NCBI GenBank assembly: GCA_963930775.1
Contig: OZ005697.1
Coordinates: forward strand, 4,052,292-4,116,291
Reading direction: 5' to 3'
DNA from: Cliona cf. orientalis
Lineage: Eukaryota > Porifera > Demospongiae > Clionaida > Clionaidae
DNA length: 64,000 nucleotides
A model generated the notes under the pieces. That model ran no database searches and was not told the DNA's origin. It saw only the letters and a program-made list of their open reading frames with translations. Positions within the stretch are counted from its first letter, which is position 1. Each line of letters opens with the position of its first letter. The translations under genes and the position numbers were made by a program. Shown here one piece after another: positions 8,852 through 55,715 of this stretch.

Positions 8852-10207
8852 GGGCAAGTGGATTTAGCGGAAACGGACGAAAACGGAAACGAAAACGAAC
8901 GCGGAAACGAAAACGAAAAAGGAAATGGTCGTCAAGAAGGTTCCAAATGTGGTATAGGTCGACGATCTTGTAAGCCTACTTTATTATGCAAGATAGCGTG
9001 GTGCATTCAGAGACTTGTCACAGGCTCAAGGCAGGCTGCTCATGCTAGCTACATAAATTATATCAGGGCGTGGGCCAACATATTATTATGCTGAAAGTTT
9101 GCCTGTCTGGAGTCTGGCATGACCTAGCCTCGTTCCCAGGCCTTTCAAGAAGGGCCTGGGTACGAGGCTAGGCAGGACCTTTCTGGTCTTCGCATTTGGT
9201 AGCTATATGACAATGAATTGAATGTCTACATAATTTGTCAGATGTTTGATAATCATATTAATTGATAAGCCAGGGGTGGGTAAGTAGTAACATGCTGGTA
9301 GTGAACTCATGTAAGTTGTATCTTGAAACTGAAAATTAATGCATATTAGTGTAATTAGGGTTGTTACCGGTAGTTCATAAATATGGAAAGTCAGCATTTA
9401 CACACAAATTATGTAGTTAATAATATATAGCTATTGTTGTTGGTGCCTTAGGTGCCCTTGATGTCTCTGTTGCCCCCGGTGTCATTGGTGCCCTTGGTGC
9501 CCTCTGGTGTCGTTGGCCACTAGCTACCTAGCTTTAAGCTGAGCCTAGGGCCTGGGGATGAGGCTCAGGCTGGCATTGATGACCTACAGTCATCAGGGCC
9601 AGGGCCAGAGTTTGTAGATACCTTCAACTAAATACATGTAGCTAGCATAGATTAGTAGAGAACCACCAGATAGGTCAAATATAATATTATATCTTATGTA
9701 TCGGGTCAAGGTTCTGTAATAAGTAGCTGATCATGAATGACGACAGTACTACATGTGCTGTTTAGCCAATAGGGGTGATAATGGAATGCGAGACTAGGGT
9801 GAAAAGTGTATTGGCAACCATGCATGTGAGACTCCAAGTGCTCCACATCACACGGCCCCGTTTTAGGATAGCTGCATAGCCGAGTCATACTTTTTCAGCC
9901 CAATATTGGAAAGCATTTACATGAGCTAGCTACCTGTGGCTAAATGCAAAGACCAGAAAGGTCCTGCCAGACTCCAGACAGGCAAACTTTCAGCGTATGT
10001 TAGCCCACGATATTATATAGCTCGAATGAGCAGCCTGTCTTGAGCCTGTGACAAGTCTCTGGACTAATAAAACTGACAAGGTCGTCGACCTATACCACAG
10101 TTGTAACCTTCTTGACGACCATTTCCTTTTTCGTTTTCGTTTCCGTGTTCGTTTTCGCGTTCGTTTTCGTTTTCGTTTTCGTCCGTTTCCGCTAAATCCA
10201 CTTGCCC
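8852..10207. mobile_element. Long-TIR element with 9-bp target duplication, Mutator-like (M1)
   Basis: The ends are GGGCAAGTGGATTTAGCGG and its inverted form CTTGCCC. Inverted arms run roughly 8852-9115 and 9960-10207. The 9-bp direct repeat AAGCTTGTC lies at 8843-8851 and 10208-10216. A 9-bp duplication with long TIRs fits Mutator-like elements. The arms contain a minisatellite of AAACGAAAACG units. The interior (9120-9955) holds a hairpin at 9124-9176 and a GGTGCCCTTGGTG minisatellite at about 9440-9515. There is no transposase, so it is non-autonomous. Confidence 0.85.
9436..9515. repeat. Minisatellite, GGTGCC/GGTGTC-type units
   Basis: Imperfect tandem repeats of about 12-15 bp (TTGGTGCCCT variants) lie inside element M1. 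Confidence 0.7.
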
Positions 10208-10709
10208 AAGCTTGTCTACCGCTACGGTGCCAAACGCTCAGTCGCCTGTCGCCAATGCTCCTCTGAGTACTCAGCCATCCATCGCGACTTCAACCACAAC
10301 TGCCCGCAACACTCGGGCATCAACGCAACCACTTCACTGAGTGCTCAAGCCCCCACGTCGACTGCAACTACGGCAGCCGCTGGTGCCACCACTGCTGCGG
10401 GTGAGTGCGTTATTAGTTGTTTATTGTTATGGCCGTGTATACCTATGATTAGGGGTAGGGGCAAGCCGTAATCTGTTCTGTGCATCTCGGGCTAATATTA
10501 ATGGCTTTTTGGCATTTCTGCAATTTTTTCGCTCAGCATTGATAACCTGGGCACCAGGCATACCAGGGCAAATAGCCCGCACATGCTCCTACAAATTCCA
10601 AGTACCTAGCTAGCTAGTTGCATGCACGGTATGGTCGAGCTCATGCCAACCTCATACCGCTTAACAAGTCTGTGCTACATGCGCACTATCGATCTACATG
10701 GACACGGAC

Positions 10710-12974
10710 GGTTATGTAGACAATGGCGTATTTTAAGAAATATTGCCCTTAGGCCTAAAGGGAAGAATTTACGCCAGTGTTCCCCTTAGACCTAAAGGGG
10801 AGATTTTACGCCACGCTCGCCGTTTTGTACATAACGGGGACATTTCACGCAAGGTATTTTGGCGCATATCTGCCCTTGTGTTTGAACATTATTATAACAT
10901 TATAAAGGGAAGATTATACGCCAACCATTTGAGTGGCGTAAAATCTTCCCTTTATGATACTGAACAAACACAAGGGCGAGTTTATGCGCCGCGATCTCGG
11001 TCGTTCTTAGCGGGGCTGAGCATGCGCAAAGTATCCTACCGAGTGGCGTAAAAGCTTCTCTTTATGATACTGAACAAACACAAGGGCGAGTTTATGCGCC
11101 GCGATCTCGGCCGTTCTTAATAACCACAATAACACTATAGTCGCAATAACTGAAAAAAAATAGCTAATGGCCTCCTTTGTAGCTCAGCATTCCATGGGAT
11201 CAACTATAAATGTGAGTAGCAAAGTAATTGATGGCTGATAACATTGATAACCAATATAACTGGTTACTTAGTAAATTAAATGATACACAGTTTCCTATAT
11301 TGAGCCACAAGTGAATACCTTGCGTAAAATGTCCCCGTTATGTACAAAACGGCGAGCGTGGCGTAAAATCTCCCCTTTAGGTCTAAAATTTTCGAAAACA
11401 CTGACGTACAGATATCCACCAATGGCCAGAGACATCTGGGTGCTGCCATAGGGACAATCGAGTTTATGGAGGCCTATGCAACACAGAAAATTGCGAAATG
11501 GGTGAGCGAAATCGAAAATCTCACGGCAATTGCTCGCTCCCATCCCCATGCAGCCTATGCTGCTTTTGTTCATGGTGTCATTGGAAGATGGCTATATTTG
11601 ATGAGAACTCTCGATATAAGTAGCTCTATTTTCCAACCACTTGAGGATGCTATCCACCACCAATTTATTCCAACTTTAACAGGGCAAGCACCAAGCTCAC
11701 CAGAGGTGAGAAAGCTATTATCACTCCCTACTTGTCTCGGTGGGTTGAACATTGTTAACCCGGTTGAAATAGCAGGATACCAACTGAAGGCCTCAAGAGA
11801 AATCACCACACCATTGAAGAGAATGATTGTTGAACAGTGTACCTCGGATCATTTCATTGCACCCCAGCTACAGTCTGTCAAGTCTACCCTTCACCGGGAA
11901 AAATGTCAAATAGATGCTGCCAAGGTAGAGCAAGTGAAGAGCGAAATTTCAACAACTTTGCAAAGGGCAATGGATTTGGGTACTGAAAAAGGTGCATCCA
12001 CGTGGTTAACTGCCCTACCTCTAAAGGAACAGGGCTTTACTCTCAACAAGCAGGAATTTCAGGATGTATTGTATCTGAGGTATGGTTGGCAACTGAGGAA
12101 TCTACCCAGTCACTGTGTCTGTGGTTCTGTTTTTTCTACTGACCACTCAATGACCTGCTCGCACGGAGGCCTGACTATAACCAGGCACAATGACATCTGC
12201 GACATCACAGCAAATTGGCTAAGTGAAGTGTGTAGAAATGTTGAGAGAGAACCACCATTATTACCCCTCACGGGAGAGAACATCGTGCCCATCTCGGCTA
12301 ACAGACGTGATGACGCAAGAGCAGACATCCGTGCAACAGGCTTCTGGGGACGTCAGCAAAGTGCATTTTTTGATGTAAGGGTTTTCCACCCAAACGCACA
12401 GAGCTATCGTCACTCCAGCATCTCAAGCCTGTACCGGCGTCATGAGCAAGCAAAGAAGAGAGAGTATGGAGATAGAATCCGTGAGGTTGAAAATGGCTCT
12501 TTCACTCCACTTGTGTTTTCCACCACAGGCGGTATGGGTCGGGAAGCCACACTATTCTACAAGCGCCTGGCAGACAATTTGTCTGAGAAGAGGAACATCA
12601 AGTATAGCAAGACTATGGCTTGGATGAGATGCACCCTCTCCTTCTCCCTCCTGCGATCTGCAGTGATGTGCATTCGAGGCAGCTGCTCAAAATCTCACCG
12701 AGTACCTAATGCCAGCCTCGAACTAGGAATTGCAGAGAGTCGGCTCTCTGGCTAAATATAACACTGAAACTACACTTTTTGCAACTAACCCTGTATACGT
12801 ACACTGAAGTTTTTCTTTTTATTTTACTTTCACCAATACGTGTACACTGTGTATTTCTCTCTTTTAATATATTATTCTCTGTTCCCCTTTAGGTCTAAGG
12901 GGAACACTGGCGTAAAATCTTCCCTTTAGGCCTAAGGGCAATATTTCTTAAAATACGCCAATGTATGTACGACC
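10710..12974. mobile_element. Long-TIR element with 9-bp target duplication carrying an RT/endonuclease fragment, Mutator-like (M2)
   Basis: It is flanked by a perfect 9-bp direct repeat GACACGGAC (10701-10709 and 12975-12983). The ends read GGTTATGTAGACAATGGCGT and, inverted on the right, GGTCGTACATACATTGGCGT. Each arm holds several copies of the block GGCGTAAAATCTTCCCTTT. The left arm is complex: an inverted partner of 10760-10870 lies at 11305-11395, and an 80-bp direct repeat lies at 10930-11009 and 11040-11119. The payload at about 11400-12760 is a 5'-truncated retroelement coding end. No transposase is present. The captured gene and 9-bp duplication are what Pack-MULEs show. Confidence 0.85.
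11466..12755 (+). CDS. C-terminal part of a non-LTR-type retroelement protein (thumb, zinc knuckle, restriction-like nuclease), inside M2
   Basis: This open frame of 429 codons has no stop. Coding similarity starts further upstream at about 11404 (QRHLGAAIGTIEF precedes the first Met), so it is a 5'-truncated piece with its natural stop kept. Residues 1-130 look like the region after the RT palm (LPTCLGGLNIVNPV at 88-100). A zinc-knuckle-like CVCG..F..DHSM.C.HGG..I.RHN spans 217-242 (C217, C219, H227, C231). A PD-(D/E)XK-like nuclease follows, with DDARADI at 282-288, FFDVRV at 301-306 and PLVFSTTGG at 348-356. This layout resembles R2/NeSL-type C-termini and is common in cnidarian and sponge repeats, as I recall. 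The exact clade is uncertain. The frame is unusually clean for its decayed surroundings, so capture is probably recent. Confidence 0.7.
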   Translation: MEAYATQKIAKWVSEIENLTAIARSHPHAAYAAFVHGVIGRWLYLMRTLDISSSIFQPLEDAIHHQFIPTLTGQAPSSPEVRKLLSLPTCLGGLNIVNPVEIAGYQLKASREITTPLKRMIVEQCTSDHFIAPQLQSVKSTLHREKCQIDAAKVEQVKSEISTTLQRAMDLGTEKGASTWLTALPLKEQGFTLNKQEFQDVLYLRYGWQLRNLPSHCVCGSVFSTDHSMTCSHGGLTITRHNDICDITANWLSEVCRNVEREPPLLPLTGENIVPISANRRDDARADIRATGFWGRQQSAFFDVRVFHPNAQSYRHSSISSLYRRHEQAKKREYGDRIREVENGSFTPLVFSTTGGMGREATLFYKRLADNLSEKRNIKYSKTMAWMRCTLSFSLLRSAVMCIRGSCSKSHRVPNASLELGIAESRLSG

Positions 12975-14709
12975 GACACGGACATGTATGTGTGTATGCT
13001 GGATCTGAATGTTTGAATGCAGCGCCGGGCATCCTGCCAAGCGGCCTTCATGTATATGTACATGCTTTGTGGTACATGTGAGGCTCGTGCTGGTGCAGGC
13101 TCAAATGTGCATGTGCATGCTCCGCGCATGCTCAACGTCATTCAACAGTCCTATTGCTTAATGTTTGCATTCTCGGCTTGCTTCCCTTCAGGTCCAATAT
13201 GAATGGGAACCATGCCCTTACCAGTGCTACTACCAACAATCCAGCTCATGGATCAGCAGGCAGCGGGTCATCCTGTGGACCCACAACCGGCTCAAGCCCC
13301 TGCGGAAAATCCTCAACTCCCACCTCAGCCAGCTCCTCGCATGGCAATCCCTTTGCCACAACCATGGCCTGCTCCTCAGCCAGCCCAGCAGCCCCTCCCA
13401 CAAGAAGCTGCACCACTCCCTATGGTGACAGCCTACCCAACTACACTAGCTCAAGTCTTGGTACCAGCCAGCTTGTACCTTGGGTATGGAGTCATGCCAC
13501 TCCTATAGCCACTTTTCTCGAAAATCCTTAATCTCTAGTTTGTCGAGATGCAGGATCTCCTCCCGGAGGCGTGGCTCACCTTAACAGCCAAGACGATGAG
13601 ACAGTCAAGTGCTGCTTGACCTCTGCCGAGGGGGGGAAGAAAGAGGTCCCCCATCACCAACATAATACATGGCTTTAGGGCTTCGCATCCCTCACGAGTG
13701 CGCTGTCAACAAAGTACCCGAATTCATGGAGTACCAGAGCACCATCATCAAATGTTATAAAGACTATGACGGCTTGGGATGGGTCCAGTACGACAGAGCC
13801 TTTAGGAGGCAGGTGGCCATCACAAAGAATCTGAACTGGTCACACATTAATGGCACCTCGTATCACTCTTGTCCAAGTTTGCCATCGAAATCCTTTATCC
13901 ATTTTAGGACTCCCACATGTCCACTGTAGACACAAGGGAATCATTTGTACATCCCTTGTCCACCCTAGTGTAGCTACCATTTGCTAAAATTCTCATATAA
14001 TATAATAATCATCCTGACATTATGATAACGTTTATCATTATAAAGGTATTATAGTATTACATATACAGCCTCTGCTTCGCAGGCAAGGCGAAACGCAGTG
14101 CAATATGCACCTGAGCGACAACCATGCATCGGAGAAGTGCCCCGAAGCCCTGCCCACGGCCAAACGCCACCCCACATCAGCATCGTTCCCTTCGGAATTT
14201 ATTCAATACAAATGGAGGCTGGCTCATGTTGCCATTATACGCACAGTGCAGGTTTGCCCACAGGTGCTCTACTTGCGACCAGGACTACCCGCAGTCCGAT
14301 TCCTGGCCTACAAACACGCAGGGAGCAGAGGCCACAAAACGCCGTCATCCGGGTGAGCTGTGACTGGTGTTCATCATCGAGGACAACTTCCCAAAGCTGG
14401 CAGTGGGACTATCCCCAGCATCGGACAGTATTTATATGCTGAGCCATTTATTTTTATTATCATGGTCTACCCGTGGCCGCGGGCATAATAATGCTCACGC
14501 ATGCGCAGAAATGGCACTTAGGGCTCGTGCACAGCTTCCCACTCATCCAGCTAGGCACTAGCTGTGAACTATGGGGCTAATTAGCCCTCGTTTTCCGAAT
14601 AGGTGTAAGAGCTAGAATGGATTAAATACTCCACCCCCACACTAGGCATGGGAACTGCTACCATAATTTGGAGTGAACGTGTTGCAGTTGCCTTTCAGCT
14701 AGCTACATG

Positions 14710-15055
14710 TATGATGGAAACAAATATGCAGTGGTATTGATGCACTACTTGACGAAGTGGTGTGAAGCTTTTGCTCTAGCCAATCAAACTGCTGAGACTA
14801 TTGCCAAGTTGCTTATGGAAGAGGTGATCTACTGACACGGTGTGCCGGAATGACTTCTTCCGATCATGGGACTAACTTTCTGTCCAAGTTAATTCAGGAA
14901 ATTTGTCAACTTATGGTAGCCAAAAAAGTAAACACATCCGGTTATCATCCGCAAATGGACGAATTTGAAAAGTTTAATTCTACTTTGGTGAACATGTTGT
15001 CAAAAGTTGTCCAGGAACATGCTCGTGACTGGGGCAGATAATTGCAGCAGGCTGT
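14710..15055 (+). mobile_element. Ty3/Gypsy-type integrase fossil scrap
   Basis: Short stretches match the integrase core of Ty3/Gypsy LTR elements: YDGNKYAVVLMHYLTKWCEAF near the start, then the HGVPE-type and SDHGTNFLSKLIQEIC-type segments, and the GYHPQMD.FEKFN segment. It lies inside the DIRS fossil. It is short and broken in several places, with no LTRs seen. Confidence 0.7.
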
Positions 15056-16050
15056 CCTGCGTGGGTCCATTATTGCCCAGCAGAATATTAAGCACCTCGG
15101 GATACATATCAGCAAGTTTGCGATCATCCCTAAGAAGCATAACCCAGGGAAGTGGAGGTTGATTGTTGACCTATCGTCCCCAGAGAAGCGTATAGCGTGA
15201 ATGGCAGTAGCTATTGATCCAGCCCTGTGCTCCCTTTCCTATATATATAATAGGGCTGGCCAGTCATCTGGGTGGACAGGAATGACTCTGTACACACTCT
15301 TGATGTCGATCTTGGCCAACTGTGTCCCTGGTCCCAGCTCCAGAACCGCTTGAGCTACCTGCTCTACCCAGTTGTATATATCAGGTAGCTCAAGCGGTTC
15401 TGGAGCTGGGACCAGGGGCACAGTTGGCCAAGATCGACATCAAGAGTGCGTACAGAGTCATTCCTGTCCACCCAGATGACTGGCCATTATTAGGGATGGT
15501 CTGGGAATATCACGTCTATATTGATGTAGCCTTACCATTCGGATTACGCTCGGCTCCTAAGTTGTTCAACACAGTGGCAGATGCACTCGAGTGGATTGCC
15601 AAGCACCTTGCATGGCCATGGCATCGCCTCGGAATTCCTGTGGCACTATCTCGATGACTTTATCACTATCGGCCTCCCGCAGACAAACAAGTGCACCTTC
15701 TCCCTTCACTTGCTCAATGATCTACGCACTCATTTAGGCTTCCTGCTAGCAACAGAGAAAGTAGAGGGGCCTAGTACATGTTTGCCATTCCTGGGGATCG
15801 AAATCGATTCTATTTGCAGGAACTTAGGCTGCCAGCTGATAAGCTATATAAATGCGGCTACGACCGCTCCTGGGGGAATGGGAGAGGAAGATAAGGTGCA
15901 CTAAACAAGACCTGCAATCTCTGGCTGGCCACCTCCAACACGTGCCTCCAGTGGTCTGTGTGGGTTACTCATTCATCAGACGCATTTACAACCGGCAGTC
16001 AACAGTTTCCAAGCAGCACTATCATGTTTGACTCTCAGCAGGTATAAAAT

Positions 16051-18715
16051 ATCTTCGGCTGATCAGAGAGAAACAATTATGCAATGGGCAGTGTATACCA
16101 CTTGCTTCTTCGGATTCTTCCATCTAGGAGAGCTGGTTGCTAACACCGACAGGATGGTCAGAATACACTCCAATATTATTGCGACTTAGCAATCGACAGT
16201 ATCATATCTCCTATCAGGAGCACATGAAGAGAAGGAGCATATAAGTTGCATACATACAGTGGTAATATCGAAAAATAAAGTAACACTGGCAGATTCTCAT
16301 TCCTGCTAATGCATAGCAGGTAGAAACATCTTGACTAAAATTTCGTAATCCAAACGATATGACTAGTAATGGGTGTAGCAAAAATGACCACAATAATTAT
16401 GTTGTGGTTGGCAAGTTAGAAAACTTCCATATTATGGAAGTTTTTGAACATTTTACCAATAACTTGTCGTTACAGTGTTCATGGCACATTGCGTTATTCT
16501 TGGTATTGTATAGCACCCACTTAGTCTACAATTATCTCTAGGTGCAGTTAGATTTATTTGTTGAGGCTATCACAAGATATTCAATTTGATAAAATTTACT
16601 TTAGTTTTCGACATTTTCTAGATGTATGCTCCTTCTCTTCATGTGCTCTTGCTCCTATATACCATGCTGAAAAGACGCCTCTGTCACTCCAAGACACATT
16701 GCTTTCACTGGTTTACGCATGGTTCCGCGTTTGTGACGATAGCTATGTTGACCTCGATCTCTCTTGCTTCATATTGATATCTAACTCGTAGATCGGACGT
16801 TATTTCTAGATTTGTGTTTACACAATGTCATGCTTCTATGGAGATTTGTATGGGGTAAGAATGCCCACATATAATGGTGTACTGCACTAATTTTGTAACC
16901 TTCAATGTTAAGAGGTGTAGATTAGATTAATTTCAGATGCTGGTAACCTGCCCCTATTATGCCAATTATTATAAGTTTGAAGTCTTATGGCAGTTCCTTG
17001 TGGCATCACCTTAACTCATGACAAAGCTATATTATACTGTCAACAATCATTAACATAATATTATTATTCATCGACATTTTATTCATCCAGTTATAATACG
17101 ATAATATTATATCTATAGCATTATTAACTAATAATGATAAAGATAATGCAACATCAATCAATACTATAATTATTATTTTTGCATAATGTTGACACTGGAA
17201 TTATGTACATACAGATTGATCAGTTTTGTGTTAGCTATATACTCAATTATTAGTGTTGCACCACTTTTCGAGTATTTCCTGACTCTTGCTTATGACATCT
17301 TCTTGGGAATCAGCCATAAACCATCCAGCTTCAGTGCTCCTGTGATAGGCATAGCCAAATGCTTTACGCAGATCAAGTTCAGCTTTATGCATGCTTATCA
17401 CAGGCATTTCAAACAGTTGCTGAAGTCGCCTTCCTCTTGATCCTGTGCACCTTTCAGGCTGCACTTCAAATCTATAGTAGTCTGTGGGGTATCCTGCGTG
17501 ATCAAGCTTTCTAATAATGTAGATGAACCCTGAGGTATCTGCATAGCTGTCAGTGAAATCTTTACCGGTACCATCAACGTCATTTGCATCGCGTTCGATA
17601 TCTTCAACCGGGTCCTATGATTGGTCACTTTCACGTTCAGCCATCTTCAGTCGTGAGTATCTTGTGTTTTGCTTGTTACTATATTATTATTATATAATAA
17701 TATGTACATATAACTGCTTGTTTCCACTGCATTTATAGCTGCTGTGTGCATGTAATTATATGCTTACGATAATAATCATGTATTGTAGCATGTCATGAGA
17801 TTCAGCTGGGTTCTTAGAGTAATCATCATGCAGTGCATGTGATCATAAATCAGTAGCATTAATAATAATAATAATATTATTATAGGTACTAAGAAAAGGT
17901 GAATCTTGAATTGATATTATTATACGTATATTATACTGCATGGTTAGTATTCATGATTGGACATAATTAACTATCTGTTAAACGCAATGTAGTATTTCTG
18001 CTATAAAAAAAAATAATTCATCGGAAAATGCTGACACATTTAATTACATCATCGTTCTAAGAATTAACATCGATCTGCATGATGCCATACATTGCCATTG
18101 CGTGAATATTTCTTAAAGTCATTCATAGTTCACCATTAGCTATATAGCTATGTACATAATAGTAATAGTTGTTAACAGTGAACTGTGAATGACTGTTGCT
18201 TGGAATTCATGAAAGACCTGTATTCAGTATTATCTTATGCCATGCACATCCTGCATGGTTCACGGTCACAAACCATGCATGGCAATACTATGGTTCAATT
18301 GATTTTACAAACGTAGCTCGATAATAATAGGCTAAGCTAGCTATATAATATTATTGTCACGGAACCCCCCCCCCCCCCCCCCACCCCAACCTTCTGCTAT
18401 CAATAATACAATTAACATTCAATCACTGCAACAATAACGGTAATTTGCAGATTTTTAAGTGATAGCTAATACATTAATCAGTTAAATTGATATTGAAATA
18501 ATTATTATTTCCCTGCTCATGCAGCTTGTTATATATCACTTGGACTGAAAAACTGTGGGATTCGCAGTGCAGCTAGGATAAAAAAATTGCCTATAATTTA
18601 TTACCGGTATTATAATAATTATAAAAACCTGCACAAATCTAAATTATAAATTTTAGCTATTACAATGTCACTAGCTACAATGTGCTATGAACACCAAACT
18701 TTAGCTTGCACCACA
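16051..18715. repeat. Duplicated 2.7-kb unit, copy I (pair of 42966-45368)
   Basis: The sequence from ATCTTCGGCTGATCAGAG to TGCACCACA is collinear with 42966-45368 with small indels. It starts in the DIRS recombinase tail and contains the GIY-YIG-like gene copy (minus strand), AT-rich spacers and a poly-C run at 18365-18384. The inverted 23-mer GAGCACATGAAGAGAAGGAG.. is present at 16219 (plus) and about 16628 (inverted) in both copies. Including the DIRS tail means the duplication followed that insertion. Confidence 0.85.
17243..17644 (-). pseudogene. GIY-YIG/T5orf172-like small protein, copy I, nonsense mutation at codon 10
   Basis: This is a homologue of the open frames at 41598-41996, 43957-44355 and 47651-48052. 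ATG at 17644 starts MAERESDQS, then TAG (17615-17617) stands where the others have CAG. After that the frame stays open to the normal stop, with QPERCTGSRGRRLQQLFEM and AGWFMADSQEDVISKSQEI kept. A single stop in an otherwise intact copy suggests recent loss, translation from a later start, or a sequencing difference. The unit is duplicated with its flanks at 42966-45368. Confidence 0.7.
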
Positions 18716-19370
18716 CGTTTCAGCAAAGATAGCACTACGTATAGCTACATTGCAGTATCCAAAGTGCTAATTAGGTTAAAATCACTTCCAGTATTGCAGG
18801 GCTTTGAGGAAACTCCATAAAAATTTTAAAACAGGCATAATATAGCTAATTATCTCTGCACGCAACCAATGCATGGATTATTACAGAATAAACAATGACT
18901 ATATAAAAGGTATCTTTTTATAATTATGTGGGGCTAAAGAAGTGTAGAGAACAATCTAAAATAGTATATCTATTCCGCATAGCTAGCCTGTTGGAGCGCC
19001 ATAGTATAGCTATCTATAATTATCTTCAATGGTTAACTAACCTAGTTATTGAAATTTAATTAGCTACTGTAGGCTTTGGGAAAAATAATAATAATCAGTG
19101 GCGTATGAAGATGTTTTTGAACAGGGGGGCTGTAAATATAATTGTGTGCAAAGTGCGCAAAAAAAATTTTTGGATCACACGATACGCCTTCAAACCATGC
19201 CCATTATTATGCTAATTTGGCTGTAAAGTAGACTTATCAGAAGATATCATTGACAAGACCTAATATTATCTTCCTAGGTTTAGACCCACTTGGCTGGCAC
19301 GAGGCACGCAAGTCTGCACAATGCTCGGTTGTGCGCATGGGCAGAAAACTTAATTAAAAGTACATGGGTA
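18716..19370. other. No gene seen
   Basis: AT-rich DNA with TA-rich short repeats. I see no coding signature and no long inverted repeat. Confidence 0.5.
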
Positions 19371-19374
19371 CATC

Positions 19375-20850: not shown

Positions 20851-21280
20851 TAAGTCGTTGCGGTTAATAGTTAAGAAAGAATGCTTTGATCTTGCTTTGA
20901 AGTGGGCAATTACCGGTGTTTTCTTCAGGGGCCACTTCCGGTCGCTAATTACACGGGCATAATCATCCCTGGCCGATTCTAGACACGCCCACCTTCGACC
21001 AAAAGCACTCGTATGGCCTCTTCGGCCACGCCCCTTCACGATTCGCTAATTGAATTATCCAATCCTGACGCTCACGCCCACGCACTTTAATGCTACCTTA
21101 AACGCCTCGATGGATCCAGCGTCAGCCAACGAGTGCTAACGATGACCTGAAGTCTTTATAAAGCAAGCGCAACAAGGGCCAAACAAGCTCAGGTAAGTTC
21201 AATCTGAGCATGACTCGTGCTATTAATAAAGCTAGCATACCCGGGTGCTACCCCCAGAAAGCTCGCGGATGCTTCTAAAG

Positions 21281-23361
21281 GGTCATGCAGACAATGGCAT
21301 AAAATAGTAATTTTTGTCTTGCTGTACTAAGGGATATTTTTATGCCAATCCCTGCTTGCTGCATCAAGGGAAAATTTTATGCCAAGTCTGCCTTGCTGTA
21401 CAGCAAGGGAGGCCTTTATGCCAGTGATATTGGCATAAAATTACCTCATGTATATGACTTAGCTTATTCTATATTAAAGGGGAAATTTTATGCCAAGGTA
21501 ATAACTGTCATAATTAAAGGAGTATCCTCAACCTGGATGTAGATATGTAGCTATTTGGCATAAAATTTTATCACAGTGTTACTTCACGATGAAAATGCTT
21601 TATGCCAATATCCAAATTTGTAGCTAGCTATAGTACTCGGGCGTGTAATAATCAGGTATGAGCATTTGTTCTTATGACTCGGCCTTCTTCTTGGTATTCA
21701 GATAATTATCTCCAAATTTAATATTGATGCTATACAATAATATTATTATGCATGCACACACGGAGGCAAACAAAATGCTCAAGAACCACCCCCCCAAACA
21801 CTTTATGGCACTATATTATTATTGGCTGATCAATATTGTTTGCTGAAATGCAGAAAATTAGTGGTCCCCTCGGACCGTCCATGGTCCCCGGTCATTTACG
21901 AGAGGGGTCACGGGCTGGGTTTCAGGTATAAATTAATGATTAGCATGCAGGGTTAGTCTCAAGAGTCTGTATGGCAGGATTAGACTCCAGGGTCTGCATG
22001 GCAGGGTTAATCTCCAGGGTTTGTCCTGGGGGAACCATGCCAAATACAGCACAGTGGACAGTCTGGGGGACCACAATTAATTTTGGTTGGGGGGGAAGGG
22101 GGGTTGGGGCGGACTATCGACAGTGTGATAGGCTCTGCATGCAGGATGATAATTTAAAAGCTAATTCAGGCCTATATTGGGGTCTTCACTTTGTAATAAT
22201 AATATGGAAATGATCAGTATTAAATTTAATACACCTGGGCTGCTCGGATCACTGGCTTTACCTGCTGTAGCTATAGCTACTCACTTTTGTTATTAAGGGA
22301 TAGATGCACTGGTAGTTTAAACCTGTGTTATTGGAATATGAAGTACACTAAGTATGTGATTCACCTCAGGATCTTAATATACTGTCAGCTCTTATGATAT
22401 TATGTGCAGAAGATGCAAGTAATTTCAAATTCTAGCTCTTTATCCCCCTCCCCCCCCCCCCCCCCAACAATGATAAGCTTCATCCCCATGCTCTCCTTCT
22501 TCCTTCCGCTTTCTTCATTTTGCTTATTATTGTGTGATATCAACTTGTACATAAAGTGGGAGAGGGAGGGAGAGGGAAAGCATGGGGACAAGGCTGCAGA
22601 TAAAAATTAATATCAATATCTCTCACCCAATAGCTATCTCTCCCCCGCCTGTGCCCGCCTGATATACCCTGAATCAGAAATAGCTAGCTAGAGCTGCTTG
22701 GGTACGAGGCATGCACCTTCTAGCTAGCTTATCCTACTGCCTCAAAGGAGGGGCTGGGAACAAATCTAACTAGAGAAGGCTATAATATAATATAAATATT
22801 TAATATCATGACTTAGCCTTGTATCCTAGGTAACAGCCATGATATAACTCCCATATACCCCACCCCTCAGGCATTATAACTCCCTACCCCTGACAATAGT
22901 CCAATATTAAACAAAGTTGCACTGGCATACCAAATTTGTGTTGTAGCTACTAGCTTTTCACTAGCTATAGCCAGTAGCTCCCATCCTTCAATAGTAGCTA
23001 GCTATGCATGGGTCCTAAGGACCTTGCTGGTTTGGCATAAAGCATTTTCATTGTGAAGTAACACTATGGTAAAATTTTATGCCAAATAGCTACATACCTA
23101 CATCCAGGCTGAGGATAGTCCTTTAATTAAGACAGTTAATTACCTTGGCATAAAATTTCCCCTTTAATAGAATAAGCTAAGTCATATACATGAGGTAATT
23201 TATGCCAACATCGCTGGCATAAAGGCCTCCCTTGCTGTACAGCAAGGCAGACTTGGCATAAAAGTTTCCCTTGATGCAGCAAGCAGGGATTGGCATAAAA
23301 ATCTCCCTTAGTAGCTACAGCAAGAAAATTTCTTCAATTTTATGCTAAATTATGTACGACC
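21281..23361. mobile_element. Long-TIR element with 9-bp target duplication, Mutator-like (M4)
   Basis: A perfect 9-bp direct repeat CTTCTAAAG lies at 21272-21280 and 23362-23370. The arms are about 330 bp (21281-21606 and about 23029-23361) and highly similar. The ends are GGTCATGCAGACAATGGC and inverted GGTCGTACATAATTTAGC. Each arm carries six or so blocks of GGCATAAAATTTYCCCTT in both orientations. The interior (21607-23028) has GGTCCCC-rich and poly-C stretches and no recognised gene. It shares terminal and subterminal design with M2. Confidence 0.9.
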
Positions 23362-23764
23362 CTTCTAAAGCACATGGTAGACATCCATAGACACTGCCCA
23401 ATCGCTCTCACTTCGAGTTCTCTCGCCGATAGCGAAAGAAAATTCCTCCAAGTTTTATACGAGGTAAAACATAAAAAAGACGGTTCAAAATCGCGTTTCA
23501 ATTTCTCCCCACACTTGGTTTAGCCATAGATCTAGGTTTAGTCTAGCTATAAGGCCACATGATGCCATATAAGGCCCTAGTTGTATTGTAGTGTACTGTC
23601 TGTATTATCATCGCGAAGGGGGCGTGCCGTGGCGAGCATGCGCCGTCGCATCCCCATACTTTGTACACGCGTTTCCAATCCCACCTCCCCCTTCTATTAT
23701 CTATGATTACACCTATCGAGGTGACTGCTCAGTGGTGAGCGACTTTGAATTCGATCGGTGCAAT

Positions 23765-45368: not shown

Positions 45369-45369
45369 T

Positions 45370-45552
45370 ACACATGTTGAATACAAGAATGGCCAGTTCA
45401 AATCAAGTAAAATGTATGGCAATGCATCTGCAATACTATCAGTGGTGGTCATTATTGTTGGATTTGTTGCGAACTTTTTTGGGTTGCTCTATTGTGTGGT
45501 AGTCCTGGCGGCTGCTTTAAGATGTGGATTTTCTAAACTTGACTGCCTTTAG
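45370..45552 (+). pseudogene. Dispanin-like exon 2, detached copy without acceptor
   Basis: 60 codons nearly identical to exon 2 of unit B (THVEYKNGQFKSSKMYGNAS, then AILSVVVIIVGFVANFFGLL, then RCGFSKLDCL and TAG). The base pair before the exon body reads CACCACAT instead of a pyrimidine tract with CAG, and no exon 1 lies within reach upstream on the plus strand in the window. It abuts the end of duplicated copy III, so it was probably moved here with a rearrangement. The open frame argues for recent origin. Confidence 0.7.
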
Positions 45553-45608
45553 CTAGTGCAATGAACATTGTGCACTAATTATGGTGTTTACATGTTACAG
45601 TATTATCC

Positions 45609-47114: not shown

Positions 47115-47283
47115 CTAATCTGTACAGTAGTTCAGTCATTCATGGCATTCATCAGTCAATTATTTTTGTCACTCGTAATAGTTATGATAACCCTTGAAAC
47201 AGATTGCTTAATAACATAATTAACTTGACCAATAATGATCGTGGCTGTTTAGCTATTCATGACAAATCATTGACAATGTCATA

Positions 47284-48960
47284 TCTTTCATCAATAATCT
47301 GATCAATGGCTGTGCATACAATGTCAGTATAGCATGATATACTATTTCAGATGCTGGTAACCTGTCCCTCTTGCGCCAATTAATTATAAGTTTGAAGTTT
47401 TATGGCAAATTGAATCTGTTCGTGGCATCGCCTTAGCTCATGATCAACCTATTGTCAACAATAATAATATTATTATTATTCATTAATATTCTATTCATCC
47501 AGTTTTAATAATTATTTAATTTAATAAGCATTAGCTAAAATAATAATAATGCAACATCAATCAATGCTATCATAAAAATTAATATTTAATTTGCATAATA
47601 ATGTTAACACTGGAATCATGTATACAGATCGATCAGTTTTGAGTTAGCTACTACTTATTAGTGTTGTACCACTTTTCGAGTATTTCCTGACTCTTGCTTA
47701 TGACGTCTTCTTGGGAATCAGCCATAAACCATCCTGCTTCATTGCTCCTGTGATAGGCATAGTTAAATGCTTTACGCAGATCAAGTTCAGCTTTACGCAT
47801 GCTTGTCACAGGCATTTCAAACAGCTGCTGAAGTCGTCTTCCTCTTGATCCTGTGCACTTTTCAGGCTGCACTTCAATTCTATAGTAGTCTGTGGGGTAT
47901 CCTGCGTGATCAAGCTTTCTAATAATGTAGATGAACCCAGAGGTATCTGCATAGCTGTCAGTGAAATCTTCACCGGTACCATCAACATCATTTGCATCGC
48001 GTTCGATATCTTCAACCGGGTCCTGTGATTGGTCACTTTCATGTTCAGCCATCTTCAGTCGTGAGTATCTTGTGTTTTATAGCTTGTTACTATAGTATAA
48101 TAATATTATGTACGTAACTGCTTGTTTCCACTGCATTTATAGCTGCTGTGTGCATGTGCTTATAATTATTATACTTACGATAATTATCATGCAGTATTGT
48201 AGCATATTATGTCATGAGATTCAGCTGGGTTCTTAGAATAATCATCATGCATGCAGTATGCATGATCATAAATCAGTAGCATTAATAATAATTATTATTA
48301 TTAGCTATATAATATTATTATACTAAGAAAAGGATGAATAATATTATACATGTAACTATGCTGTATACACTGGCTAGTATCCACGATTGGATACAATTAA
48401 CTATATCTGATTCTGTGAAACGCAACGTAGTATTTCTGCTATAAAGCACAAATAATTCATTGGAAAGTGCTGATACATTAATTTTAGTTAGCTACATCAT
48501 GATTCTAAGAATTAACATTGATGTGCATGATGCCATAGCTACATTACCATTGCGTGAATATGATATTTTTCTTAAAGTAATTCATAATTCACCATTAGCT
48601 ATGTACATAATAGTTAACAGTGAACTGTGAATGATTGTTGCTTGGAATTCATGAAAGTCCTGTATTCAGTATTATCTTATGCCATGCACATGCTGAGCTG
48701 CATAGTCCATGGTCACCACCCTTGCTCACAAACCATGCATGGCAATACAGTAACAGACTGTTACTATGGTTTGATTTTACCAATGTAGCTCGATAATAAT
48801 AGCTAGCTATAGACTGTCACGGCAAATTCACCCCACCCCCAACCTTCTGCTAAAATTAATAATAATACAATTAGCTAACATTCAATCTCTGCAACAATAA
48901 TGGTAATTGTAGATTTTTAAGTGATAATACATGAATCCGTTAAATTGATATTGTAATAAT
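47284..48960. repeat. GIY-YIG-like gene unit, copy IV
   Basis: Collinear with copy II to about 48190 and with the distal parts of copies I and III further on (ATGTCATGAGATTCAGCTGGG to TTAAATTGATATT), with more divergence than between I and III. Confidence 0.8.
47651..48052 (-). CDS. GIY-YIG/T5orf172-like small protein, copy IV
   Basis: 133 codons, open, starting MAEHESDQSQDPVEDIERD and ending EILEKWYNTNK. It differs from copy II by a handful of residues (GEDFTD, RSNEAGWF, extra terminal K). The neighbouring plus-strand sequence gives no partner gene. Copies II and IV form one subgroup and I and III another. Confidence 0.55.
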   Translation of the reverse strand: MAEHESDQSQDPVEDIERDANDVDGTGEDFTDSYADTSGFIYIIRKLDHAGYPTDYYRIEVQPEKCTGSRGRRLQQLFEMPVTSMRKAELDLRKAFNYAYHRSNEAGWFMADSQEDVISKSQEILEKWYNTNK

Positions 48961-48989
48961 ATTATGTGACCCGCCATGAGAAAAGGGAC

Positions 48990-49585
48990 CATTTGGGATA
49001 TTCTAATTATTATCTCCCCAGTAGCAATTTACTTTTCTGTGGTTATGAGGTAATTATGGTGTAATTATGATGAAACCTATGGTGTAATCTCTTAGGTAAT
49101 CTATGAGGTAATTATGAGAAAATTCAGGGCCTCGCTGGAGCCTTTCTGGGACTTGAAAATCAGTAAATATGTAGAGTATCTTACGCGTGTATCCAGCGTA
49201 TACATTACAAGCTGAGCGCTACTTTCTCTGAGAAGTACTGTTGGTTGAACTTCACGTGTTTTCTTGGCTTACGTAATGCCGTGGATAAATAAAGCTAGCC
49301 TTGCGCTATATAGCACTCATTGTCACAAGGGGCTGTCCCGCGCGCGACTGCAGCAGCGTGACCAACCTGAAGTTCGGAAGGAATACTGTACTGTCGAGTT
49401 CGTCTCTGTGATTGAAGCATCGAAACTTGTCGCTGTCAAGGCTGAGAGTCGATCTTAGACGCCATCTCTATGATTTCTGGGGCGAGCATCGATCGATGTT
49501 TACGCATTCTATTGACGACCATTTACCACATGCACCATTACACTATGCAGCTACTGGGGAGATGGTCAAGGGTTCATAATAATTA
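48990..49585 (+). repeat. Repeat family CCCCAGTAGC (copy 4, short form)
   Basis: From TATCTCCCCAGTAGCAATTTAC to GGTCAAGGGTTCATAA. It matches the second half of 29246-30180 and lacks the kinase part. Direct GGTAATTATG repeats lie near its start. Confidence 0.75.
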
Positions 49586-50282
49586 CTAAAATGTGTGGAA
49601 GCATAGCTATTATTTTTCACTTTAATTTTTTTTGGTCTATTAGAAAATTTAGATTTTTGGCTTCATATTGATATGTTAGGCCAAACAAACTTAATTACTA
49701 GTTTCTCAGGCTTTCAAATTTCAAAACCCATGCGGGAGGCGGCTTTTTATTTTATTTTTTAATGAAAAATGGGCGTGGCGATAGTGACCACGCCCATTTT
49801 CGCTAGTGCTGCACGTGGTTGATACACAAGCTATTGCTGAAATACAAGTATTGAAGTCCAACCAGAGAGAATATATAGCCTAACAATCAAGTTTAGCTTT
49901 CTATTTAGTAGAGAAAAGTTTTATCAGTCGTACTAACCTTGTAAGATGACAACATTAGCCTGCACCAGATGACGTCATCATCTTTGAAGAAAATAGCTAG
50001 CTAGCTGCTGGCTAAATACCACTTTCACGGAGACTTCAGTTGTGAGATGTCAACCAAACTGTCCCGAGATGCCAGAAAACAGTTAGTTTTATGAACTCTT
50101 TACTGTATGTTCCAATTTTTGTCTGTTAATTAAATTAATTAGCACGTGACTGCTCACGTGAAAAATAAATAAAAAAAGTCTTGCTTTCTCAAAATTTGAT
50201 GCGGGCGGGCCTGAGAAACTATTAATTAACTTTGCTTGGCCTTATGTTCATAGAGTTGCAACATGTAAACTATAGTTATGGG
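49586..50282. other. No gene seen
   Basis: AT-rich with short inverted CTTTTTATTTTAT / GGGCGTGGCG stretches. A diverged inverted pair, GCTTGGCC..A / TAGGCCAAACAA, lies at about 50235 and 49676 together with GTTTCTCAGGC (49700) and GCCTGAGAAACTA (50208). This suggests an old TIR element spanning about 49675-50245. Confidence 0.45.
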
Positions 50283-51469
50283 GGTCCTACATATTTTAGT
50301 GTAAAATAGAGTTTTATACCTAGAGTAACTCATGGGACGATTTTACACCAATACAACCTAGAGTAACTCATGGGACAATTTTACACCAGCAAAATTAGTG
50401 TGAAATCCTGAGTATTTATTGTATGCCAAGCATATTAGCTATAAGGGAGGATTTTACACCACCACATCAAAATTAAGGGGCTTACTCATGTAAAATTATC
50501 CTATATAACTTACCTCCGCTATATATAAGGGACAATTTACACCAGTTGCCACCACAGGTACTGAAGTGGTGTAAAATCATGCCATAATAATACTGATGGC
50601 TAACAGTAACTGGAGCAAATATTTACATGTGACCTCACTTAAAATTCTCCCATAATAATAAGAATGCACATCCATACTCTGCTAAAACTTTAAGTGTGGA
50701 CTTTGACCTGGTGTGAAATGCTCCCTTGTATATAGCCACTGAATCCAGACTCAGGTGGGTTTTTAAGTGCGTTCTGAATCCTCGCTTGCTGTGGGTGTGG
50801 CTGTAGTGCACGCACTCGGTGGGTGGGGCTATCCTGCAGCCGCAACAGCTTTGCACTCGTGCTAATAGAATATTATGGTAGGTGGGGCTCACTATATATG
50901 TTCACGAGTTAGAGTTCCTCATCAGGACATCTCTGCTTCGCGCTCACGCTAATAGAGTATTTTATGTGCCACTAGCAGTGGGGTTTTTTTTTAAGCTCAG
51001 ACTGCCTATGGTTCCTAACACACGGATTATAAAATTAATAGCTATAAATAATTCATTAGTATATTATAGGACGCCTGTCCCTATTATGAGACACCACATG
51101 AGGTGTTTTATTTATTGATGTCCTATATAGCCATGTGCAATTAGCATAGCTACTTCGAGTGAGATTTGGGTGTTAGCTAATGACAAAAAAATAGGTAAGT
51201 AGCTATGTGCCAAACAAGCAAAGTTGCAAAGTTGATACACCAAAAACCGTGTTTACTATAAAAACTCATAAAAATAAGGTAGATAGCTAACAAATCCAAC
51301 GTGCTGGTGATACAATACATCCAATGCTGCGGAAATAGAAGGGGTCCGGGTTCGAGACTAGCCATGAATGATTCCTGATAGCAGCTAGCTACTATAGTGA
51401 TTTAGCTATATCTCTTTTTAATGTGATAGCTAATTCTCTTTGAGTGAAATGTGATTTAGCTATAATTAT

Positions 51470-52045
51470 GAACCCTTGACCATATCCCCAGTAGCTGCAT
51501 AGTTTAATGGTGCATGTGGTAAAAGGTCGTCAATAGAATGCGTACACATCGATCGATGCTGGCCCCAGAAATCACAGAGATGGCGTCCAAGATCGACTCT
51601 CAACCTTGATAGCGAAAAGTTTCGATGCTTCAATCACAGAGATGAACTCGACAGCACAGCATTCCTTCCGAACTTCAGGTTGGTCGCGCTGCTGCGGTCT
51701 CGCGCGGGCCAGCCCTTTGTGACGATGCGTGCTATATATAGCGCAAGGCTAGCTTTATTTATCCACGGCATTACGTAAGCCAAGAAAACACATGAAGTTC
51801 AACCAACAGTACTTATCAGAGAAAGTAGCGCTCAGCTTGTAATCTATTCGCTGGATACACGCGTAAGATACTCTACATATTTACTGATTTTCAAGTCTCA
51901 GAAAGGCTTCCAGTGAGGCCCTGAATTTTCTCATAATTACCTCATAGATTACCTAAGAGATTACACCATAGGTTTCATCATAATTACACCATAATTACCT
52001 CATAACCACAGAAAAGTAAATTGCTACTGGGGATATAACGGGACG
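51470..52045 (-). repeat. Repeat family CCCCAGTAGC (copy 5)
   Basis: Reverse match of 48990-49585. The end reads ATATCCCCAGTAGCTGCATAG on the left and GCTACTGGGGATATAACGGG on the right. Confidence 0.75.
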
Positions 52046-52047
52046 TA

Positions 52048-52451
52048 ATTACCCCGCGCGCATGCGCAAGGGGTAAAGCAATCGGTTTGTCCGTCTGTTG
52101 TTGTCGTCGTCGTCGGCGGCACGAAAATCGCCAGATCTCGCGTTCTAGATATCTGTGCGTGCTATAAGCATAACCAATCGGTAGATATCGGTGAAAAACT
52201 GGTTTGTACGCGCTTCGAATTGCTCAAAAAGGCTTACTAGTGCTACAAATCGTGCATTTTCTGTTCAGCATGCCTGTGGTTTATCGACCACACCCTGCTT
52301 TTAGCATAATAGCGACTGCGCATGCTCAAGCTCTGTGTTGGAAAGGGTCGTCAAGTCATATAACAGCTATATATGCCGCAGAGTGTTGCAATACTGTGCT
52401 ATTATTAGTGGCTACAGAACGCGCGTTTTATGTGCTCTATAGAGCTCTAGT
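52048..52451 (-). repeat. 390-bp dispersed repeat R (copy 2)
   Basis: Reverse match of 24640-25035, starting ATTACCCCGCGCGCATGC directly after the CCCCAGTAGC repeat and ending AGAGCTCTAGT. Contains a TTGTTGTCGTCGTCGTC microsatellite. Confidence 0.75.
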
Positions 52452-53220
52452 TATAGCTATATTATCTATGTATTCATAAAACACTACCAAATAAAATTAT
52501 AGGGTGCGATTGAGTGAGTTCACTCCCATGTAGCTATATGGTATCTAGCTACTCTCCTTCAGATGGACAAACTGAAGAGGCATCTTTTGATGATGAAGAC
52601 ATAGAAAGTATAAATTAGCTATAATAGCATCCAAGTGAGAGAATGTACCAGTATCTATAGTCACAGAGTCATGAATATTATCAACAACTCTAAAACAGTA
52701 AAATTAATATTAGCTAGCTATATCTATAAGTCAGTAGTGATCATAATATAATATAATAGCTATAATTACCATTTCTACCCTTATCACTCTGAACACAAGG
52801 TTGTACTGCAGAAATTATCCTGACATGCTTTACAAAGAACTCTAACTCGTGCACATAGTGAGCCCCTGGCCTACCATTCTATTAGCACAAGCCCAAAGTA
52901 GCTGTCGCGGCTGCAGGATAGCCCCATGCACCCAGCACTACAGCCACACCCACAGCAAGCGAGGATTCAGAACGCACTTAAAAACCCACCTGAGTCTGGA
53001 TTCAGTGGCTATATACAAGAGAGCATTTCACACCAGGTCAAAGTTCACACTTAAAGTTTAGCAGAGTATGGATGTGCATTCTTATTATTATGGGAGAATT
53101 TTAAGTGAGGTCAAAGGTCACATGTAAATCTTTGCTCCAGTTAGCCATCAGTATTACATGGCATGATTTTACACCACTTCAGTACCTGTGGTGGCAACTG
53201 GTGTAAAATCGTCCCTTATC

Positions 53221-54590
53221 ACAGAGTCGACGGTAGACTCTATAAGTAGGGATGGCCCGGATATTGCCATATAGCTATGTAATACATTACAAACACATAA
53301 ATAACTCAGAGCAACTAAAATTTTAAGATTTCTAACTCTCATATTCGTGATCTACTCCAGAATACCTATCTATCAAGCCCCCACACATCCATGGAAATTA
53401 TCAGGTATGCCTGAACCAGCTGTGTAAAAAATAGCCAGTTGTCAATCTTTCTTTCTTTTTCATTACCAGGGGTAACTCAAGACTCTCTGGACCGCTCACC
53501 TTACAGGGGCGTAGCCAGGATTTTAGAAAAGAAGGGGCAAGATTGCGTGCGAAGCGCACGAAAAATTTTAGACCGGAAACCACACCCACTAATTAAATCA
53601 CGCGCTCCGTTTTGTGCCCTTCGAACTCATCTAACGTTCGAGATTCCAGACCAGACACTGCTCGATCGAGGCATAGCTCGAAAGTTTGTTTACAGATAGC
53701 TTTATAGTCAGCTTTTCTGTGATGATTTTTGACTCTGAAGACTGCTGTAACAACTTGGTGCTGGCATTTATACGGTAAAAAGTGATAAATATTACATGAC
53801 TCTGGGAAAAAAGGGGGGGCAAATGCCCCCTGTGCTCCCCCCTGGCTACGCCCCTGCCTTAGTTCTCATATAAATCCACTCTATTTTGTAGCGTGCAGTG
53901 CAGTGTCACACTAGTTTTGTGTTATCATGATAGCTACGTAATGGTGGGTTTGGTAAGCGCATATATATTGTACGATTGGGTGTGTCTTATACGCCATTTT
54001 GTCATATAATGCGCATGCTCATAATGTGTTACCATGGTGAAGTCATGTGACAGGAGTTGGCGCTGGCGCCACGAGCCACCACATTGATCACGCGTGCGGG
54101 CCAGAGGCTCGAGGCAGACTAGACCGATGACCTGATAGAAGCCTGAGAATGCGCTAGTCCGTGAAAAACTAGCTACTGTTTAGGGAGCAACTCTAGGCCT
54201 TAAAAACGAGTAAGTTTAATGTTGGTAGCAGCTTCTCTGGGCTGGGAACGAGGCTAGTCACTGAGCTGACTGTTTATATGCCGAGCCTGATCTATAGCTC
54301 GCCTTTGCGGTGCGATCTAGTGAGGGGCGTGGCTACGACTCGCGCGCGAGCAATTACGGCCTGTTATCCTGGACAAGTAGACTATTATTATACCACTACA
54401 CCATTGAAATGAAGTTAAGAGTTAATGAGAAATCATAATAGATAGCATTGATGAATTACACTAAAGAGGAACAAAAAAGAACAGAAACAAGTAGCTATAA
54501 AAAACAATGAAATTGAAGGGTGAAGTAGGGAGGGGAGGGCTAAAAAGTATACTAACAAGATTTGTAGGGATAATCATGTCTTATACTTGT
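53221..54590. mobile_element. Insertion splitting M3, composite
   Basis: The M3 arm is broken exactly here and resumes at about 54590. The insertion begins CACAGAGTCGACGGTAGACTC, like 6567. It includes a nested element at 53514-53856 and a region related to 7850-7950. Its right limit is approximate. Confidence 0.45.
53514..53856. mobile_element. CAGGGGCGTAGCCAGG-ended MITE, 343 bp
   Basis: The left CAGGGGCGTAGCCAGGATTT and right CCCCCTGGCTACGCCCCTG are inverted. CCTTA flanks both sides (53509-53513, 53857-53861). These ends are widespread among animal MITEs. A 5-bp duplication is unusual for the hAT-type ends they resemble, so family assignment is open. Confidence 0.75.
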
Positions 54591-54654
54591 ATAATATTAT
54601 AGCAGAGGTAAGTTATATGGGAGAATTTTACATGAGTAAGCCCCTTAATTTTGA

Positions 54655-54840
54655 TGTGGTGTACCCCTACACTCTTTCTTTCCCGTTATACTGGCAGGAA
54701 AGAGTGTACCCCTACACTGTTTCCTCCCAGTAATACGCGGGCATTGACCTTTGTGTACCCCCACACTATTTTACCCCCCAATTTCCCGAGTAACACTGGC
54801 AGGAAAGAGTGTACCCCTACACTCTTTCCTGCCAGTTAAC
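54655..54840. repeat. Cluster of GTGTACCCCTACACTCTTTCC units
   Basis: Four or more copies of GTGTACCCCTACACT, some followed by CTTTCCTGCCAGT in alternating orientation. The design is like the subterminal blocks of the M elements but the sequence differs. It may be a short fourth member with lost ends. Confidence 0.5.
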
Positions 54841-55077
54841 GCTGGAGTAAATCTTTGAATAGTGTAATATTGTACAGATCCCTGTCATCAAAGAGTTCAA
54901 CATGGCTCCTGATAACTGCTAGCGGTAGGTTAGTCTCGTGCCCAGACCCCACCCCCAAAAAGAGGGAAAGGGTCTGGCGCATTTCGAGCCATTTCTTGTA
55001 TTTGCTGACTCTGCAGATCAGGTGATTTTGGAATGTCGATCACGTGCGCAAAGCGGAATTCCAATTAAAAAAAGCCG

Positions 55078-55272
55078 CTAAACAGGTGGGAAATTGTCGA
55101 ATACTAAAGAAACACAGGTAAAACACAGAGTCTGACTTTTGCCACTCCCGGTGGGCAGAGATATGAATACATCGCGACCACTTACAAACTTCTGAAGAAT
55201 CTCTGCTTGATCATCAGTCGGTTGATCGTATCCAAGATCTTTAACGCTCTGGGTAATTATTAGCTTGCTGAA
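55078..55272 (-). pseudogene. RecQ-like helicase fragment, exon 2 (captured in M5)
   Basis: Starting after the TTGTTTCAG acceptor (exon begins at 55272), the frame reads FSKLIITQSVKDLGYDQPTDD, then QAEILQKFVSGRDVFISLPT and GSGKSQTLCF. The Q-motif-like DDQ and a complete Walker A (PTGSGKS) are those of RecQ helicases. After about 64 codons it runs to a stop beyond FDNFPPV, with no later helicase motifs. It is far too short to be a helicase (RecQ cores exceed 300 residues). Together with 55324-55350 it keeps an intron, so capture was from DNA and not from mRNA. Confidence 0.75.
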
Positions 55273-55323
55273 CTGAAACAAGGGTCACAGTGAAGCTTCA
55301 AACGACAACGAGGAACAACTTAC

Positions 55324-55350
55324 AGTCGCGACGTCCTGCACCTGGTTCAT
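55324..55350 (-). pseudogene. RecQ-like helicase fragment, exon 1 (captured in M5)
   Basis: ATG at 55350 gives MNQVQDVAT, followed by a GTAAGT donor at 55318-55323. The intron of about 51 bp ends TTTCAG at 55273, and both junctions are phase 0. Very short first exons and introns of this size fit sponge-like gene structure. Confidence 0.6.
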
Positions 55351-55715
55351 CTCCGCTAGCCGCGCTACACGCAAGTGCTCTATCTACTAGTATCTAGTCT
55401 GGGTGCCAGCCCCTTCACAGCCCCTTCAGCCCCTTCTTGTGAAGGGGCTGGCACCCAGACTAACTAGTATCTTCGTGCACACGCCTATCATGTTATTTGT
55501 CATTAAAATTATTATTATTATTATTTAATAATAATTATTATATACGTGTACGTACGTTAGTCTACAAGTCACATGATAAAATCACATGCCTGTAATCTGA
55601 TTGGTAGTCCAGGATCCTGCACTGTCAAGTCAGCAAATACAAGAAATGGCTCGAAGTGCGCCAGCCCTTTCCCTCTTTTTGTGGGTGGGGTCTGGGCACG
55701 AGACTAGCGGTAGGT

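Follow-up and report, generated by a model that had tools for sequence, protein, structure and literature searches.

The 64-kb window analysed here (C9:4052292-4116291 of the 216.8-Mb, 149-contig genome of Cliona cf. orientalis) holds four transposable elements, named F1, F2, F3 and F4, each flanked by a 9-bp direct repeat. We read all four as non-autonomous derivatives of helicase-carrying transposons of the AcademH type, a type assigned by description, and place this reading just on the probable side. It is carried by a coding copy of F2 elsewhere in the genome, in which a RecQ-type helicase and a DDE-like domain lie together. In window positions, the elements and their duplications are:

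8852-10207: F1 element, 1356 bp, with ends GGGCAAGTGGATTTAGCGG
8843-8851 (+), left, and 10208-10216, right: F1 9-bp duplication AAGCTTGTC
10710-12974: F2 element, 2265 bp
10701-10709 (+), left, and 12975-12983, right: F2 9-bp duplication GACACGGAC
21281-23361: F3 element, 2081 bp, with F2-type ends
21272-21280 (+), left, and 23362-23370, right: F3 9-bp duplication CTTCTAAAG
54931-55706: F4 element, 776 bp, with ends TAGTCTCGTGCCCAGACCCC
54922-54930 (+), left, and 55707-55715, right: F4 9-bp duplication GCGGTAGGT

The duplications are perfect and sit immediately outside the element coordinates, the window has no third occurrence of any of the 9-mers, and every one of the four elements has inverted terminal repeats. 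Those of F1 are about 250-270 bp long, with arms 78% alike and subterminal repeats of the GGAAACGAAAACG type. An earlier, sequence-only reading of the window had correctly reported both the duplications and the long terminal inverted repeats (TIRs), and had called the four elements unrelated-looking. That description suits the bodies of F2 and F3, between which blastn gave no match longer than 80 bp, but not their termini, which both start with GGTYATGYAGACAATGGC and end with the complement of GGTCGTACATA. It had also labelled the elements Mutator-like. Duplications of 9 bp and long TIRs do fit Mutator-like elements (MULEs), for which the available text of PMC6446971 gives 8-11 bp, and this is the first support for an alternative that derives all four from ordinary MULEs (MuDR) and takes their helicase pieces as captured or nested sequence. 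We consider that alternative unlikely, though a serious contender, for reasons that emerge from the longer copies discussed below.

Terminal stretches of the elements were searched across the whole genome, with 40 scored of 82, 150, 75 and 477 candidates. The copy set comprises the 50 two-ended copies among the loci retrieved, counting those of the window. It leaves out loci with one end, repeat retrievals of a single place, and two relatives of F4, in L061 and L062, each of which has an exact 9-bp duplication. By pattern, F1 ends occurred at 70 sites with at most two mismatches, compared with 3 for a reversed-pattern control, and F4-type ends at 1489 with at most one mismatch, compared with 0 for the control; 100 of the 1489 F4 end places were listed. 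An exact 9-bp duplication was present at the boundaries of 30 of the 50 copies. With one end moved by 1-60 bases either way, all 120 displaced registers together yielded three exact 9-mers, and about 0.0002 would be expected by chance at the boundaries (50 x 4^-9). The 9-bp duplications thus exceed chance.

The families differ in how regular the duplication is. It was exact at 9 bp in 13 of 14 F1 copies, the remaining one having a single mismatch, and in 12 of 15 F4 copies, with one further copy exact at 8 bp and two (L028, L092) showing neither. Among the F2 copies, 3 of 14 were exact at 9 bp and four at 8 bp (L069, L075, L076, L077), and among the F3 copies 2 of 7 were exact at 9 bp. The 9-bp length that the sequence-only reading expected of further copies holds in most F1 and F4 copies examined, and F2 shows 8 bp as well as 9 bp. 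Both outcomes which that reading named as refuting it were seen in part, the 8-bp duplications in F2 copies and, in the coding copy of F2 described next, a partner other than a classical MULE. Of five long copies checked additionally, four had an exact 9-bp duplication. The 7.6-kb F1 copy C9:7581296-7588907 is flanked by the exact duplication GGTAAAAAC, and exact 9-bp duplications flank two 6.3-kb F4 copies (C1:32118016-32124284, GGAAGGGTC; C1:27808811-27815121, TGAGAGACC) and a 7.8-kb F4 copy with both F4 ends (C3:10883277-10891072, GCGACTTTC).

The F2 copy L055, on C5, measures 9256 bp between F2 ends and codes for a B-box-like piece, a 921-aa helicase frame and, in-frame after one stop, a 392-aa domain. 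The helicase frame matched DEAD (E 1.4e-21) and Helicase_C (E 5.7e-14), with RecQ_Zn and RQC below threshold, and scored 298.9 bits with the RecQ family TIGR00614 (cut-off 219.8). The window F2 is linked to this copy by its termini: 410 bp at its start and 92 bp at its end are 98-99% identical to the L055 ends. Another F2 copy, L069, retains positions 1-2129 of oriented L055 and parts of 7778-9256; what is left is the periphery of a single coding element, a pattern of internal deletion and not of capture. Pieces of the 392-aa domain were found by tblastn in 7 of the 13 other F2 copies (L054, L056, L069, L071-L074) and not in the window copy. The places of L055 and L069 are also covered by two further loci, L010 and L015.

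Genome-wide, the 392-aa domain had 109 matches (105 of 109 scored). RecQ searches scored 49 of 325 candidates in one case and 26 of 528 in another. RecQ and domain matches adjoin in a single open frame of 1310-1358 aa at five places:

C4:3097648-3101250: RecQ and DDE-like frame, 1329 aa
C6:5101294-5104896: RecQ and DDE-like frame, 1329 aa
C10:1851237-1854839: RecQ and DDE-like frame, 1329 aa
C1: RecQ and DDE-like frame, 1310 aa
C7: RecQ and DDE-like frame, 1358 aa

The joint occurrence in one frame at five places argues against helicase pieces that were captured or nested in an ordinary MULE. The three 1329-aa frames have near-equal scores on different contigs, which suggests recently mobile full-length relatives of the F2 partner.

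Inspected by eye, the 392-aa domain contains TDTTY, VDWSDTE, GCNVH and NTNGVERAN, an arrangement that resembles DDE transposases with CxxH. We take it as the putative transposase that moves these elements. The MULE profile PF10551 matched it only below threshold (E 0.12). When it was aligned by hhalign with a profile of 13 MULE proteins of this genome (19 less six that were duplicates or short), the first and second D and the CxxH were aligned at E 0.002 and a score of 33.0. The controls scored 17.7 for the best of 20 shuffled sequences, 17.2 for the reversed one, 16.5 for a hAT-like protein and 14.0 for part of the RecQ frame. Because the score lies above all controls and the probability is only 13.8, the relation of the F2 domain to MULEs is specific but weak. 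The alignment at D, D and CxxH is a further point for ordinary MULEs. Viral contigs contained no relative of the F2 domain, and a search of solved structures gave none up to E 10.

The same data could place F2 in a helicase-carrying lineage of the MULE clan distinct from AcademH, with F1 and F4 separate. In favour of such a lineage, RecQ precedes the DDE-like domain in-frame and that domain has the MULE-like D, D and CxxH; C/DxxH is not listed for Academ in the available text of PMC9587614; and no RecQ-MuDR fusion was seen in the titles and abstract starts of the papers listed. Yet the available texts on Academ and AcademH already describe a RecQ helicase (PMC3627910) and duplications of 9-10 bp (PMC10045372), the resemblance to MULEs is weak, and the lineage would be set apart from AcademH by description, not by transposase sequence. 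We regard it as distinctly unlikely. An AcademH-type derivation of F2 itself, from the coding copy with RecQ and DDE-like domain, has good standing.

The sequence-only reading had seen no transposase in the window. Among the candidates scored (150 of 153, 105 of 109 and 77 of 77, respectively), no match to PF10551, the F2 domain or PF12762 (the Merlin-associated DDE_Tnp_IS1595) lies there. The window F2 does have another open reading frame:

11466-12755, + strand: 429-aa open reading frame in F2, partly also present in F2 copy L056 at 762-1556 (-)

A Pfam search with this frame returned nothing at E 0.1; presumably it is like the end of a retrotransposon protein.

F3 is tied to the RecQ-carrying type with fair confidence through its F2-type termini. 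A hAT origin of F3 was considered from open reading frames of copy L057, which we take to be hAT-like and for which Pfam gives just DUF4371 at E 0.018. These frames lie mostly in a stretch that does not align with the window F3 or with L058, L059 and L060, and they were not used.

In F4, the window copy carries one recognisable coding piece:

55081-55350, - strand: N-terminal fragment of a DEAD-type helicase with GSGKS; broken by a single stop in the window copy and uninterrupted in L083 and L084

The window piece matched PF00270 (DEAD) at E 7.1e-6 and 26.3 bits, next to a cut-off of 26, and the L083 piece at E 5.8e-5, under the cut-off. In 11 of 15 F4 copies there were also weak matches (E 0.003-0.15) to the RecQ frame of L055. 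Together with our reading of the motif, these matches make the fragment probably RecQ-like, and we tentatively derive F4 from the AcademH type on its account.

The 7.8-kb copy C3:10883277-10891072 contains the one MULE gene detected between F4 ends and could be taken to make F4 a MULE family. We rejected this assignment. Both junctions were read, and the gene sits in an element of its own, M, with inverted ends ACGCAGTGTCTACTGAGCCGG..., inserted into the F4 copy; in L085 the F4 body is uninterrupted at the insertion site. Because the MULE gene is inside the nested element, it is not the transposase of F4. Element M is a MULE whose frames are of the ZSWIM-like, SWIM and PHD-finger types. Its two copies, in L053 (C3:10885000-10892500) and L061 (C3:10978500-10986500), are separated by about 94 kb and inverted relative to each other; one sits inside the F4 copy, and the L061 copy begins without F4 ends. 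They are 99.9% alike over 5.5 kb, which speaks for the ordinary-MULE alternative. So do at least 58 matches to PF10551 genome-wide, and since the genome holds these, MULEs may mobilise F1 or F4. Three of the matches (C2:11402029, C8:9710000, C19:1052913) have the same score and 1022-aa open frames, which suggests recent movement of another MULE family.

The longer copies of F4 and F1 bear on the same question. Neither the two 6.3-kb F4 pairs nor the three long F1 pairs contain a PF10551 match, which is a point against ordinary MULEs, and a PF12762 match is likewise absent from both sets. The latter concerns Merlin (IS1016-type) transposons as the mobilising system of F1 or F4. With 71 PF12762 matches the genome does hold such sequences, and the 8-bp duplication given for Merlin in the available text of PMC10045372 is near 9 bp. 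Besides the missing matches, the exact 9 bp in 13 of 14 F1 copies counts against it, and we judge a Merlin origin very improbable. The long F1 copy C9:7581296-7588907 holds a RecQ match (C9:7586297-7586725, 42% identity, E 3.7e-28), the basis on which F1, too, is tentatively assigned to the AcademH type. Given 528 RecQ-like first-look candidates in the genome, about 0.02 RecQ matches are expected by chance in 7.6 kb, and more over three such pairs. If F1, F3 and F4 belong with F2, they would use the same transposase class.

Very small elements with F4-like ends were observed beside the larger ones, one of them in the window:

9125-9170: micro-element of 46 bp lying in F1, its ends like those of F4 and its flanks GGCATGACC/GGCAGGACC differing by one mismatch

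Micro-elements of 44-46 bp, which contain scarcely more than two F4-like ends, occur at window positions 9125-9170 and in L074 (306-349), L001 (1754-1799) and L004 (1332-1377). Their 9-bp duplications are exact in L074, L001 and L004, while the window copy has a single mismatch. One inherited insertion probably accounts for the three that lie within F1 copies. No duplication accompanied two further short pairs, of 61 and 76 bp. More micro-elements are likely, since the 100 F4 ends that were listed include six pairs that face each other over 42-65 bp.

Several observations weigh against an AcademH-type origin of the four elements. With regard to the duplications, the boundaries used show neither an exact 8-bp nor an exact 9-bp match in 7 of 14 F2 copies, although one of the seven (L070) comes within a single mismatch of 9 bp and another (L074) fits 8 bp if the boundary is shifted; 5 of 7 F3 copies lack an exact 8- or 9-bp duplication. 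The full-length F2 copy L055 has no duplication at its boundaries, and neither has a full-length F2 copy on C11 with either of two right ends. Where F2 duplications exist, they are 8 bp as often as 9 bp, compared with the published 9-10 bp for AcademH. As to coding content, no RecQ or F2-domain pieces were found at E <0.1 in the 14 F1 copies or the 7 F3 copies, and the three long F1 pairs have no F2-domain match. In F1, the RecQ match may belong to an element nested within the copy; the MULE gene between F4 ends turned out to be a case of this kind. In F4 the RecQ label is weak, the helicase piece could be a captured fragment rather than the remnant of an internal deletion, and 221 bp read at a point 544 bp into one 6.3-kb copy look exon-like by eye and include no RecQ-like stretch. 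The low hhalign probability belongs to the same side of the balance.

The MULE label is not established for the four elements, while the observation behind it was right. Its 9-bp duplications and long TIRs stand, but the F2 coding copy combines RecQ with a DDE-like domain and is not a classical MULE. The MULE transposase expected between the same ends turned out in F4 to belong to the nested element M, and the F2 domain reaches MULE only below threshold. With a helicase-carrying relative behind at least one family, a 9-bp duplication and long TIRs are insufficient to call an element a MULE. A wider proposal holds that RecQ upstream of a MULE-clan transposase marks a lineage which links MULE and Academ-type transposons, moves F1-F4 and mobilises 44-46-bp derivatives with 9-bp duplications; we find this unlikely.

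For the AcademH-type reading, a mechanism can be sketched. The transposase would bind the long terminal repeats and excise the element, then attach it to the target strands at points offset by 9 bp (in F2, by 8 or 9 bp), and gap repair at the staggered joints would leave the duplication. The helicase may open the ends or the target, or aid gap repair. In this one genome of large contigs, single-frame RecQ and DDE-like matches (at five places) can be compared with shorter and very small derivatives, and this comparison opens a way to test what a helicase does in cut-and-paste transposition.

Comparison with known systems places the elements as follows. Gene-capturing (Pack-MULE-like) elements resemble F4 and F2 in that copies of both carry pieces of coding genes. 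They differ from F2 in that L069 keeps the two flanks of a single coding element; for F4, deletion and capture are not separated. Phantom and Rehavkus are MULE/MuDR types among animals. According to the available text of PMC6446971, MULEs occur in many animal groups and have long TIRs with their 8-11-bp duplications, and both features were found here, apart from copies without a duplication. The likeness to MULE/MuDR extends to subterminal repeats within the long TIRs and a weak similarity of the catalytic core, whereas F2 has a RecQ helicase and matches PF10551 just at E 0.12. The words helicase and RecQ are absent from an arthropod MULE survey (PMC13359780), and the word helicase from the available text of the MULE review (PMC6446971). 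KolobokH, as described in the available text of PMC9587614, belongs to a C/DxxH superfamily, is restricted to fungi, has a RecQ helicase downstream and makes 4-bp TTAA duplications. It shares with F2 a RecQ helicase adjoining the transposase of a C/DxxH superfamily, whereas here the helicase is upstream and the duplications are 8-9 bp of varied sequence; TTAA duplications were not seen in the surveyed copies.

AcademH transposons encode a helicase and make duplications of 9 or 10 bp, and the title of a paper in the reference list of PMC10045372, the source consulted in part for these features, includes animals among their hosts. F2 differs in its duplications of 8-9 bp, in the helicase preceding the DDE-like domain in one frame, and in the MULE-like CxxH of that domain. 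A RecQ-type helicase is present in F2, F4 has an N-terminal fragment of the DEAD type, and F1 has one match in one long copy. Compared by description and not by transposase sequence, the likeness to AcademH lies in a helicase carried with the transposase and in duplications of about 9 bp.

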